Assembly (NCBI RefSeq): GCF_027925305.1
Contig: NZ_BSDR01000001.1
Span: forward strand, 2,507,001 to 2,571,000
Reading direction: 5' to 3'
From: Desulforhabdus amnigena
GTDB taxonomy: Bacteria > Desulfobacterota > Syntrophobacteria > Syntrophobacterales > Syntrophobacteraceae
DNA length: 64,000 bases
Numbering within the stretch: the stretch's first letter is position 1; every line of letters begins with the position of its first letter. Shown here one piece after another: positions 2,648-9,382 of this stretch. Both the position numbers and the translations under genes were made by a program. The notes beneath the pieces are model-generated. The model did no database searches. It had not been told where the DNA came from and was given only the letters and a program-made list of their open reading frames with translations.

Positions 2648-3817
2648 CTATGCCCGCTTGTACAAAGGAGACATGGCCCGCAGCATAGTCACCACGTGAG
2701 AGAGAGTATCCACGGCCTGTTGAACTTCTTCTTCCGTGTTTTCCTCCCCCAGGGTAAAAAGCAATGTGCCCAGCGCTTCTCCGCCCAAAGCGCCCATGGC
2801 TTCCAGCACGTGAGATGCCTTGGCGGTGATGGACATACAGGCCGAAGCCCCTGCCACACTGATCCCACGCAAATCCATATGCAGCAGCAACGCCTCACCC
2901 TCAACGAAACGGATGGAAACATTCACAAGGCCGGGGATATGCTCTTCCGGATGCCCATTGAACTTGATCTGATCGACATGGTCGGCAATCCCCTTTCGAA
3001 GCAGATCTTCTAAATGCTTACAAGTCGCCATGCGGTGAGGCAGATTCTGCAGGGCCAACTCCGCCGCCTTGCCCATTCCAACGATACCGGCAACATTCTC
3101 GGTTCCCGTACGGCGTCCGTCTTCCTGTCCGCCACCGTGAAAGAGAGGCCATAGCTGGACCCCCTTTTTGCAATAGAGCGCTCCGGTACCCTTGGGGCCT
3201 CCAAACTGGCTCGCAGCAAAGCTGAAGAGATCAACGCCCAGGTCCCTGACATCCACGGGAATGCGCCCTACCGAAGCGACGGCATCGGAATGGAACGGAA
3301 TTCCCTTTTCTTTTGTATAATAAGCAATTTCTTTCAACGGCTGAATGGTGCCCACTTCATTGTTGGCATGCATGATGGAAACCAGGGCGGTATCCTCGCG
3401 CAGAGCCTTTTTCACATCCCCGGGATTCACCTGCCCGTAGGAATCGACGGGTATTTCAGTGACTTCGAACCCAAACCGTTCGAGCGCCTTGGCAGAATAC
3501 AATACAGAATAATGTTCCACTGCGGAAACGACGATGTGCCTTTTTTCCTTCATCCTATGGAAAGCCGTTCCCTTGATGGCAAGATTGTTGGATTCCGTCC
3601 CACAAGAAGTGAAAATGATCTCTTCTGGCTCGGCCCCGACCAAGCGGGCCACCTGTTCCCGGCTCTTGAAAAGAGCTTCCTGAGGTTCTTCGCCATCGTG
3701 ATGAATGCTCGCCGGATTTCCAAAATACTCTCGCAGGAAAGGCTCCATAGCTTCCACGACTTCCGGAGCCACAGGGGTTCCCGCAATATGATCCATATAG
3801 ATCCGCTTGTTCTCCAT
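2648..3817 (-). CDS. Cysteine desulfurase-like (NifS/IscS family) class V aminotransferase, PLP lysine replaced
   Basis: The 389-residue protein begins MENKRIYMDHIAGTPV. I chose the ATG at 3817 because GGAGG stands eleven bases before it; an in-frame ATG at 3886 would add 23 unlikely residues. NifS/IscS enzymes remove sulfur from cysteine for Fe-S cluster and thiolation pathways. Family marks seen here are the EH pair in VSAVEHYSVL, the PLP-contacting Asp in HSDAV, and a cysteine loop GASACMSI. However, the segment that normally reads SAHK-x-x-GPKG reads AASQFGGPKG: the codons at 3206-3211 give Ser203-Gln204 where His-Lys is expected, so the lysine that forms the Schiff base with PLP is absent. 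The rest of the fold looks intact. It may work as a scaffold or sulfur-relay protein, or use PLP without a covalent bond, as reported for the archaeal Archaeoglobus fulgidus IscS, which has Asp there. Confidence 0.9.
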   Translation of the reverse strand: MENKRIYMDHIAGTPVAPEVVEAMEPFLREYFGNPASIHHDGEEPQEALFKSREQVARLVGAEPEEIIFTSCGTESNNLAIKGTAFHRMKEKRHIVVSAVEHYSVLYSAKALERFGFEVTEIPVDSYGQVNPGDVKKALREDTALVSIMHANNEVGTIQPLKEIAYYTKEKGIPFHSDAVASVGRIPVDVRDLGVDLFSFAASQFGGPKGTGALYCKKGVQLWPLFHGGGQEDGRRTGTENVAGIVGMGKAAELALQNLPHRMATCKHLEDLLRKGIADHVDQIKFNGHPEEHIPGLVNVSIRFVEGEALLLHMDLRGISVAGASACMSITAKASHVLEAMGALGGEALGTLLFTLGEENTEEEVQQAVDTLSHVVTMLRAMSPLYKRA

Positions 3818-3845: not shown

Positions 3846-4067
3846 CTATAAACTCCAATATAGACAAAAACTGAAAAATCTTTCATTCAGCCACGAGACA
3901 AAATCGGGATAGCACCAAAAAGCCCAAAACATTCGTTTATACTTTTCACACTCAAAAAGAGTCAACAGAAAAGCACCGACATGTGTTTGACGCCCGCAAG
4001 CTCTGCGGATCCAATGCACCGAAGCCAACCCGCTGCGATTCCATGCGATGTAAGAACCGGGTTCCAT
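3846..4067 (-). CDS. Possible 73-codon small ORF upstream of the desulfurase-like gene
   Basis: An ATG at 4067 follows AAGGAG with good spacing, and the frame stays open to a stop 28 bases before the desulfurase-like start. The predicted peptide (MEPGSYIAWNRSG...) is rich in Trp, Cys and Phe and resembles no family I know. The strong ribosome site is the only argument for it. It may be a leader peptide or chance. The rest of the 3887-4227 interval shows nothing else recognisable. Confidence 0.25.
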   Translation of the reverse strand: MEPGSYIAWNRSGLASVHWIRRACGRQTHVGAFLLTLFECEKYKRMFWAFWCYPDFVSWLNERFFSFCLYWSL

Positions 4068-7344: not shown

Positions 7345-8133
7345 TTATGATCCGTCTTTTTGCACAGCCAGTGTCTGCAGGAGGGTCGAAGACCCCGGCA
7401 TCGCATTCAAAGGGGGAGGCAAATATGCCAGGTTCACGTGACTCATGGCATGGAAAACGTTTCCACGCACCTTGGGACTTTTCCGATAGAGGGAATCCAG
7501 AAGGGTTCGAATTTCCATGCGCTTGTTTTTGTTTGAGGATGGGCAGCCATTGCGAATCACCGGAATATTCAATCTTCGACTCAGCCGCTCCACTTTCTCG
7601 GCCGGCACCAGGGCCAGGGGCCGAATGACCGTCACTTCGCCGTTGAAGAATTCCTGTTTGGGAAGCATCGCGGCCACCTGAGCTCCATAACAGATATTGA
7701 TGAAAAAGGTTTCAATGAAATCATCCTGGTTATGACCGAAAGCGAGCTTACGGCACCCCAGTTCGTGCGCTTTTTTGAAAAGAGTCGTTCGTCTGAGGCG
7801 GGCACAGAGGAAACACGGGTTTTCCCGGTTCTCGGGACCATGAGCCTTCACTCCGTGATCCGTTCGGATGATTTCGTGACGAAAACCCTCTCTCTTGAAA
7901 TAATCTTCCAGGAGACCCGCAGATTCCGTTTCGAAACCCGGATCCACATGGACGGCTACGAGATCGTAGCGGATGGGAAGCCTGGAAAGACGCTCCCTCA
8001 GCAACCACAGGAGGAGCATGCTGTCTTTGCCTCCCGAAACCGCCACAACAATGGTTTCTCCATCTTCAATCAAACCATAATGATGGATGGCCTTGCCCAC
8101 GAGGCGCCGCACTTCCTGATCGATAAATGCCAT
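7345..8133 (-). CDS. TtcA/TilS-type PP-loop tRNA-modifying ATPase (tRNA 2-thiocytidine family)
   Basis: The 262-residue protein starts at an ATG at 8133 behind AAAGGATTAAA; an in-frame ATG at 8247 would run into the upstream gene. It has the PP-loop SGGKDS near residue 33, then PCFLCARLRR (the CxxC typical of TtcA-like proteins) and GHNQDD(F)IET. These are marks of enzymes that adenylate a tRNA base and replace oxygen with sulfur, with an Fe-S cluster held by cysteines. A third cysteine follows in NGCPSSNK. Bona fide TtcA thiolates C32 of certain tRNAs, but the subfamily includes relatives with other or unknown targets, so I leave the symbol empty. It is one base from polA. Confidence 0.88.
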   Translation of the reverse strand: MAFIDQEVRRLVGKAIHHYGLIEDGETIVVAVSGGKDSMLLLWLLRERLSRLPIRYDLVAVHVDPGFETESAGLLEDYFKREGFRHEIIRTDHGVKAHGPENRENPCFLCARLRRTTLFKKAHELGCRKLAFGHNQDDFIETFFINICYGAQVAAMLPKQEFFNGEVTVIRPLALVPAEKVERLSRRLNIPVIRNGCPSSNKNKRMEIRTLLDSLYRKSPKVRGNVFHAMSHVNLAYLPPPLNAMPGSSTLLQTLAVQKDGS

Positions 8134-8176
8134 TTTAATCCTTTGCAACTCCCGGAAAAATGGTTCGATATCCAAA

Positions 8177-9382
8177 TCACCCCATCCGGCGATCGAATTC
8201 TGAGCCCTGAAGGTTGAGATGCTCCACGGCATTCTTGATGCCCGCAAGGGTGAGATCTTCCATATGAAAAAGACGGCCGATACGCGAAATGGTGGTGCTG
8301 TGCCACTCCCAGCGATCCCTGGGGATGGGATTCAACCAGACGCTTGCGGGAAAGGCTTCACGCATCTCCTTCAACCACTCCCACCCCGGCCTGCGTTCAG
8401 TGGTGTGGATATCGAGCGAACCATATGCGGCCATGAGCTCGGAAGGCGCCATGTTCGCATCTCCGATGACGATGAGGCGGGTGCTTTTGCTTTCTCCCAG
8501 AAAAGCGTCCCATTTTAAGGGTTCCGTGCGCAGAAGATCCCGGTAGACGACGCCGTAGACGCAGTTGTGAAAATAATAGGTATTCACATCCCGAAAGAGT
8601 CCCCGGATCTTGTTGAAAACGGTCTTCACGAGAGCGACATGGGGCATCATGGAATAGCCGCCGTTGTCGAGCAAGATGACCAGACGCAAACGGTTCCGCA
8701 ATTCCCGCCGAAAGATCAGTTCGATCTCACCGCCGTTGCGCGCCGTTCTCGCGATGGTCGCATCGATATCCAGTTCCACTTCGGGCCCGGTCGGGCGCAG
8801 GCTTCTAAGGGAAGTCAGAACCTGCCCCAGATTCACTGCAGCCAGAGTGGACTTTTCACTGTAATTGACAAATCCTCTCTTTTCGATGACCTTTTGAGCC
8901 GTCCCGTAAAGCCCCTTCCCGTAAACACGGACGCCTCCACCCTTCCTTCCGCTATGCCCGAACAGCGATGTTCCCCGTGTTCCGACCCAGGTATTGCCTC
9001 CATGGTGTTCTCCCTGCTGTGCCAGTACGGTCTCCCAGAAACGGGCGAGCAATTCCTCGGTCTCCATCTCCTGAAGGGCTTCAGGGGAGAGGCGCCCGCT
9101 CTCCATCTCGTCGCGCAGCCAATCCTGAAAAGGCTTTCCCGCCATCAGATCTTCCCAGCCGGCCGGATTTTCGATTCCGTCAGCCCCCAAAAAGAAAGCC
9201 CTGAAGGCCTGCTCAAAAAGGTCGTAGTGTTCCACGTGTTTTACAAAAATGAGCCGCGCCAGCAAAAAAAGCCGATCCAGGTCCGGCGCCAACCCGCGCC
9301 GCAGGGCACGGTAAAACTCCAGGATGTACTGAACACTGACGGGAATGCCCGCTTCTTTCAACTGATAAATAAAGCCGATCAT
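8177..9382 (-). CDS. VWA domain protein, CoxE-like, with degenerate MIDAS
   Basis: The 401-residue protein begins MIGFIYQLKEAGIPVSVQYI, typical of VWA/CoxE proteins that pair with MoxR ATPases. The C-terminal von Willebrand A fold starts near residue 225 (RLVILLDNGGYSM). The metal site normally reads DxSxS. Here it reads D-N-G-G-Y-S (8643-8680), so the second MIDAS position is changed while the Asp survives. GDANMAPSEL follows. MoxR/VWA pairs act as chaperones that mature metalloenzymes or remodel complexes. The partner MoxR gene is 28 bases upstream on the same strand. Confidence 0.88.
   Translation of the reverse strand: MIGFIYQLKEAGIPVSVQYILEFYRALRRGLAPDLDRLFLLARLIFVKHVEHYDLFEQAFRAFFLGADGIENPAGWEDLMAGKPFQDWLRDEMESGRLSPEALQEMETEELLARFWETVLAQQGEHHGGNTWVGTRGTSLFGHSGRKGGGVRVYGKGLYGTAQKVIEKRGFVNYSEKSTLAAVNLGQVLTSLRSLRPTGPEVELDIDATIARTARNGGEIELIFRRELRNRLRLVILLDNGGYSMMPHVALVKTVFNKIRGLFRDVNTYYFHNCVYGVVYRDLLRTEPLKWDAFLGESKSTRLIVIGDANMAPSELMAAYGSLDIHTTERRPGWEWLKEMREAFPASVWLNPIPRDRWEWHSTTISRIGRLFHMEDLTLAGIKNAVEHLNLQGSEFDRRMG

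Follow-up and report, generated by a model that had tools for sequence, protein, structure and literature searches.

The window analysed here, a stretch of 64,000 nucleotides from Desulforhabdus amnigena, contains near its beginning a minus-strand gene (2648-3817) for a lysine-less NifS/IscS-like protein, which was identified from its open frame, a PF00266 match of 246 bits over residues 7-368, a structural model and Foldseek searches. The start of the gene was placed at MENKR, an alternative in-frame ATG being present at 3886; the product has 389 residues, and the open frame spans 412 codons and is intact, as the preliminary description of this DNA had stated. The model of the protein reached a mean pLDDT of 87.1 and a pTM of 0.88, with weak regions at residues 1-3 and in the loops 227-239 and 325-334. 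The class V aminotransferase fold is present: TM scores (query length) were 0.89-0.94 over the 27 best PDB rows, which were NFS1 and IscS chains, and the best Foldseek rows came from human NFS1 and from IscS of A. fulgidus, M. tuberculosis and E. coli. By sequence, the nearest PDB entries were 9wep with six variants, all of one cysteine desulfurase series, followed by A. fulgidus IscS2. The protein remained under the curated cut-off in all 25 NCBIfam families listed, the best being TIGR03402 (465.8 vs. 530.75). Directly downstream, on the same strand at 2-2500 and running past the start of the window, lies a gene whose profile matches are to TIGR03960 (B12-binding radical SAM) and TIGR03936/DUF2344; it is followed in the genome by genes for ribonuclease G and glutamate-1-semialdehyde aminomutase. 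Upstream, a TtcA-like PP-loop gene at 7345-8247 overlaps the start of the polA frame and scores under the TtcA cut-off (197.7 vs. 272), and the order of polA and a TtcA-like gene upstream of IscS was also seen in 4 of 12 stretches from relatives.

At 3206-3211 the plus strand reads CTGGCT, giving AGC CAG on the minus strand, and the encoded Ser-Gln replaces His205-Lys206 of IscS, since His-Lys are the residues aligned at this site in the lysine-bearing homologues. These residues are Ser203-Gln204 when the Met of MENKR is numbered 1, and 204/205 in the P0001 translation, which is one codon longer at its start. Re-reading the codons yielded no AAA or AAG, so the claim of the preliminary description that the His-Lys position is occupied by Ser-Gln was borne out. 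The alignment revealed two further replacements on the minus strand: Ala for IscS Gln183 at 3275-3277 (DAVASVG vs. DAVQSVG) and Leu for IscS Arg354, the residue that we assume holds the substrate carboxylate, at 2759-2761 (LFTLGE vs. RFSLGR). The Asp at 3284-3286 (IscS D180; Asp179 in P0001) and the His at 3512-3514 (IscS H104; His103 in P0001), which we take to be residues of the PLP pocket, are kept, as is the Cys at 2837-2839 (IscS Cys328; also Cys328 in P0001), which stands in GASACMS within the low-confidence model loop 325-334; the retention of Asp, His and the Cys loop had likewise been correctly described beforehand. The C-terminal motif SPLY at 2660-2671, common to most homologues of the set, presumably has a role in docking IscU. 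In one published report, K206 of IscS is the lysine forming the PLP Schiff base and C328 is the catalytic Cys on a mobile loop (PMC5176006).

To place the gene among its relatives, we used 59 genomes, namely the own genome and 58 others, mostly of the same genus, family, order and class. An IscS of the window type, with at least 65% identity, was found in 13 of them, and the lysine site reads Asn-Gln in nine, Ser-Gln in two and Asn-Ile in two; this identity threshold, and that for the IscU treated below, were set after the gaps had been seen (53 to 66% for IscS, 67 to 80% for IscU). In another genome of this genus, an ortholog of 86% identity has the identical codons AGC CAG; ten more orthologs of 66-76% identity have Asn-Gln (8) or Asn-Ile (2), and an eleventh, incomplete one has Asn-Gln. 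The recurrence of the same codons in a second genome and the absence of the lysine from the other orthologs rule out a base-calling slip at 3206-3211. The dN/dS ratio (NG86) was 0.06-0.11 in 9 of 14 pairs, values that are rough in that dS exceeds 1 in most of the nine, and the other five pairs were saturated. On the strength of the lysine-less orthologs and these low ratios, we regard the gene as encoding a maintained protein and not one in decay, which agrees with the earlier suggestion of a conserved lysine-less subfamily, as does the retention of residues across the clade. A functionless paralogue on its way to decay might be suspected from the missing catalytic residues, but this is highly improbable given the dN/dS values of the computable pairs, the persistence of Cys, Asp and His across a large clade, and co-inheritance with one IscU.

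The residues lost together with the lysine were examined in an alignment of 112 rows, of which 63 have the lysine and 49 lack it; among the 49, two are duplicate contigs and one is truncated. A SufS-like protein (L002) and a second instance of the window gene (L004) were excluded, and 7 of 121 loci had been dropped for want of a tblastn match. Because lysine-less queries were used to collect the homologues and the contig scan covered the best 80 of 593 matches, the shares given here are not prevalences, and kinship among the rows makes Fisher values on these counts too small. His205 is kept in 63/63 rows with the lysine vs. 2/49 without it, Gln183 in 62/63 vs. 4/49, and Arg354 in 62/63 vs. 0/49, being absent from all 48 lysine-less rows that reach that position. 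D180 and H104, by contrast with these losses, are present in all 112 rows, and C328 in 111, the remaining row being truncated; T76 and N155 occur in 38 and 47 of the 49 lysine-less rows, respectively. In a second tally of 50 lysine-less and 64 lysine-bearing rows, from which second copies of loci (L213-L223) were left out, 49 of the 50 have Leu, Val, Ile or Met in place of Arg354, and Ser203 (IscS numbering) has become Ala in 37/50 vs. 4/64 rows. Conservation of Gln at the lysine position throughout the clade, which the preliminary description had proposed checking, was not found: Gln occupies 34 of the 50 lysine-less rows, and P, R, T, D, I or A the remaining 16. The joint pattern of the losses of Lys, His205, Gln183 and Arg354 suggests that these proteins no longer bind and activate cysteine on PLP but retain the Cys loop and part of the PLP pocket. 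The residues at IscS positions 205, 206, 183 and 354 would offer a means of sorting likely active from likely inactive IscS-like proteins.

A Nitrospirae homologue that lies within the lysine-less clade (L046, 10001-11149) keeps His-Lys, but Gln183 is replaced by Cys and Arg354 by Gln; it is possibly an intermediate or a re-tuned enzyme. An archaeal IscS homologue beside iscU (L227, 1510-2649) is another lysine-less type, in which Lys has become Thr, His104 Asp and Gln183 His, with Arg354 kept. The genome G041, whose window-type protein reads Asn-Ile, also encodes a second lysine-less IscS of a Pro-Ala type (L246, on G041:C217), which is followed after about 0.5 kb by an IscU-like gene. In addition, the PDB entries 9wfe and 9wfy are variants of one cysteine desulfurase; in the printed alignments Arg354 is Val in both, and Lys206 is also Leu in 9wfy. 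These substitutions look engineered and resemble the natural losses in the lysine-less proteins.

The 24 lysine-less loci from titled records come from Clostridia, Omnitrophota, Dehalococcoidia, Anaerolineales, Acidobacteria, Nitrospirae, Aminicenantes/Saccharicenans, Saganbacteria, Smithella, Desulfobacterales, Deltaproteobacteria and others. In a quick tree built with the four trait columns removed, and also without a truncated row (L024) and duplicates (L052 and L064, the latter itself duplicated by L033), 46 of 47 lysine-less rows formed one group together with the lysine-bearing L046 and L056, and the 47th, A. fulgidus IscS2, fell outside this bacterial group. A more careful tree of 64 chosen rows, L227 not among them, split off the bacterial lysine-less group at 100/99 and placed A. 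fulgidus IscS2, together with the archaeal Asn-Asp proteins L225 and L226, inside an archaeal group of 12 (100/99). None of 200 bootstrap trees (0%) had a single change of the lysine, whereas an AU test on the same rows did not reject one origin, the constraint of one lysine-less clade with L046 and L056 allowed giving p = 0.097. Since the trees put A. fulgidus IscS2 among archaeal lysine-bearing proteins, two origins through convergent loss of the lysine in bacteria and archaea are favoured by these sequences, although not proven.

The preliminary description had pointed to the radical SAM/DUF2344 neighbour as a sulfur- or methylthio-type modification partner. The synteny stood: in 10 of the 13 window-type genomes such a gene lies directly downstream on the same strand, with 14-394 bases between the ends of the matches. 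The specificity did not, since TIGR03960 matches (E <= 1e-50) were found in 59 of 59 genomes, 55 of them over the curated cut-off, and 46 of the 59 are without a window-type IscS. It is thus quite unlikely that the true partner is this radical SAM enzyme, with the IscS-like protein building or repairing its cluster or bringing it sulfur; in two genomes of another family the gene is also 5.4-5.7 kb downstream, and the last of the 13 ends at a contig edge. The own genome has a second, shorter gene of the TIGR03960 type (L148; G000:C1:3989637-3991358), and two matches were found in most of the 59 genomes.

Our results point to an IscU encoded elsewhere as a better candidate, because it tracks the window-type IscS across genomes and the radical SAM family does not. 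Two further NifS/IscS-like genes of the own genome both read His-Lys, and one of them (L001) stands beside one of the five NifU_N matches of this genome. Another NifU_N match (G000:C1:2263467; L150, 8456-8953) is distant from every PF00266 match. This unlinked IscU carries GNVNCGD, KTFGCGAA and KLHCS, which we take to be cluster ligands, and scored 185.2 against the clostridial NifU model (cut-off of 187.9); its Cys-rich C-terminal tail, ACCGSNERGCG, may bind a further metal. Orthologs with at least 80% identity were found in 14 of the 59 genomes, the next best match having at most 67%, and they are present in 13 of 13 genomes with a window-type IscS vs. 1 of 46 others. The sole exception (G013) is an 87% complete assembly in which the IscU is present and no IscS match was found. 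Counted by genus, the co-inheritance is 8/8 vs. 0/21, in a test that ignores the tree of 59 related genomes. In all 14 genomes the IscU gene sits between a ferredoxin gene and mnmA, and mtaB comes next in 13 of them, the sequence of the remaining one breaking off. The genome G056 has a related Asn-Gln IscS with no iscU beside it, which pairs with an IscU of 65% identity in the same operon order.

The IscS and IscU genes are unlinked throughout the window-type clade, no iscU being adjacent. Across the wider set, a same-strand iscU no more than 1 kb away was found at 16 of 24 lysine-less loci from titled records and at 40 of 56 loci with the lysine. When at least 1 kb was available on both sides, the counts were 11/17 vs. 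34/47, with none near in 6 of the 17, and adjacency to iscU was rejected as a mark of the lysine-less type on either count. A C-x2-C...C MnmA was also rejected as a marker of lysine-less genomes: among the best 30 MnmA places, every match read had C-x2-C at the first site, with or without this type of IscS, and two distant matches did not align at the second site.

What was observed directly is that the residues are lost, that these losses are conserved, and that the gene is inherited together with the unlinked IscU; by analogy with A. fulgidus IscS we consider it probable, with some reserve, that the protein is a desulfurase-dead IscS that docks the unlinked IscU and lends a Cys to cluster assembly. 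Having lost the Schiff-base Lys, His205, Gln183 and Arg354, it would be inactive as a cysteine desulfurase, and it would hold the putative partner from the ferredoxin-iscU-mnmA-mtaB operon through its kept C-terminus. Cys328 could serve as a transient ligand while the cluster forms on IscU, as has been proposed for A. fulgidus IscS; the cluster would be made from iron and free sulfide, the presumed source, and would supply tRNA-thiolation enzymes, a use that the mnmA-mtaB context at most suggests. Several points tell against this reading: the IscS and IscU genes are not linked in this clade, PLP-pocket residues are kept that a pure scaffold would not obviously need, Gln183 is retained in four and His205 in two lysine-less rows, L227 lost Lys and His104 yet kept the Arg, adjacency to iscU is not above that of lysine-bearing loci, and co-inheritance is not binding. 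As for sulfide, two papers say that Methanococcus maripaludis uses it for Fe-S clusters (PMC10500019) and that the SMS system of M. jannaschii can use it (PMC12192291). Both methanogens are there described as lacking a cysteine desulfurase, so these cases back sulfide as a source and not the role of the IscS-like protein.

Two other functions would leave the desulfurase reaction lost and give the protein a different task. In a persulfide relay, the Cys would take a persulfide from an active paralogue, for example the His-Lys NifS of the own genome, and hand it on, the recipient being IscU, MnmA or the radical SAM enzyme. Cys328 is indeed present in all complete rows, the own genome has His-Lys paralogues, and each of the 13 window-type genomes holds at least one further homologue (E <= 1e-40), the lysine site having been read in the own genome and in the second gene of G041, which lacks the lysine. 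Such a relay would leave the retention of the PLP pocket unexplained, however, and the A. fulgidus precedent, as given in PMC7585200, is a ligand role; we therefore consider it unlikely. Alternatively, the protein would be a lysine-less PLP enzyme of another reaction, in which the retained pocket residues hold PLP or PMP without a Schiff base and the substrate has no carboxylate in the position usual for these enzymes. D180 and H104 in every row, T76 and N155 in most lysine-less rows, the status of Gln as the commonest replacement, and the PLP shown in the A. fulgidus IscS-IscU structure, according to a figure legend of PMC9769115, are in keeping with it. No single new group has replaced the lysine, however, given the six other residues found in 16 of 50 rows, and Arg354 has given way to Leu, Val, Ile or Met in all but one of the 50 lysine-less rows, which makes this enzyme a still less likely choice than the relay. 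The favoured docking of IscU lends itself to direct testing, since the protein pairs with a single unlinked IscU. More broadly, and only tentatively, anaerobes may possess a bacterial desulfurase-dead ISC system in which IscS turned from a sulfur donor into a sulfide-fed structural subunit of cluster assembly, probably independently in bacteria and archaea via the same losses, and which in this lineage would serve an IscU dedicated to thiolating and methylthiolating tRNA.

Compared with known systems, the protein shares with NifS/IscS desulfurases such as E. coli IscS and PDB 9wep (420 bits) the fold, the Cys loop and the Asp and His of the PLP pocket, but unlike them it lacks the Schiff-base Lys, His205, Gln183 and Arg354. 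The MIS system (MisS-MisU) is, according to PMC12442378, a pair of IscS and IscU homologues, and it includes the sole, essential pair of H. pylori, termed desulfurase and scaffold in PMC10653786; here, in contrast, the presumed IscU is encoded away from the IscS-like gene. Our literature search found only two archaeal cases of a lysine-less IscS and none in bacteria, and as it took in few subscription journals, absence from print is not implied. According to PMC7585200, A. fulgidus IscS is without desulfurase activity because Asp stands in place of its Lys, and it contributes a Cys ligand to the cluster on IscU; M. acetivorans IscS1, like our protein, also lacks the lysine. The kind is thus already known, whereas no report was found in the literature searched of the large bacterial clade, of the joint loss including Arg354, of a possible convergence with the archaeal proteins or of co-inheritance with an IscU encoded elsewhere. 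The finding extends to many bacteria what had been reported for two archaea, and it bears on how anaerobes build Fe-S clusters. The closest parallel is A. fulgidus IscS2 (PDB 4eb5 and 4hvk; D199K mutant 4r5f), to which the preliminary description had already likened the protein, rightly in kind, as the same set of residues is lost. It has the same fold, Asn-Asp at the His-Lys site, Ala for Gln183 and Leu for Arg354 (4eb5), and it keeps the Cys, Asp, His and SPLY. It differs in having Asp instead of Gln at the lysine position, is 44-45% identical to the window protein, and groups with archaeal lysine-bearing proteins, apart from the bacterial clade.
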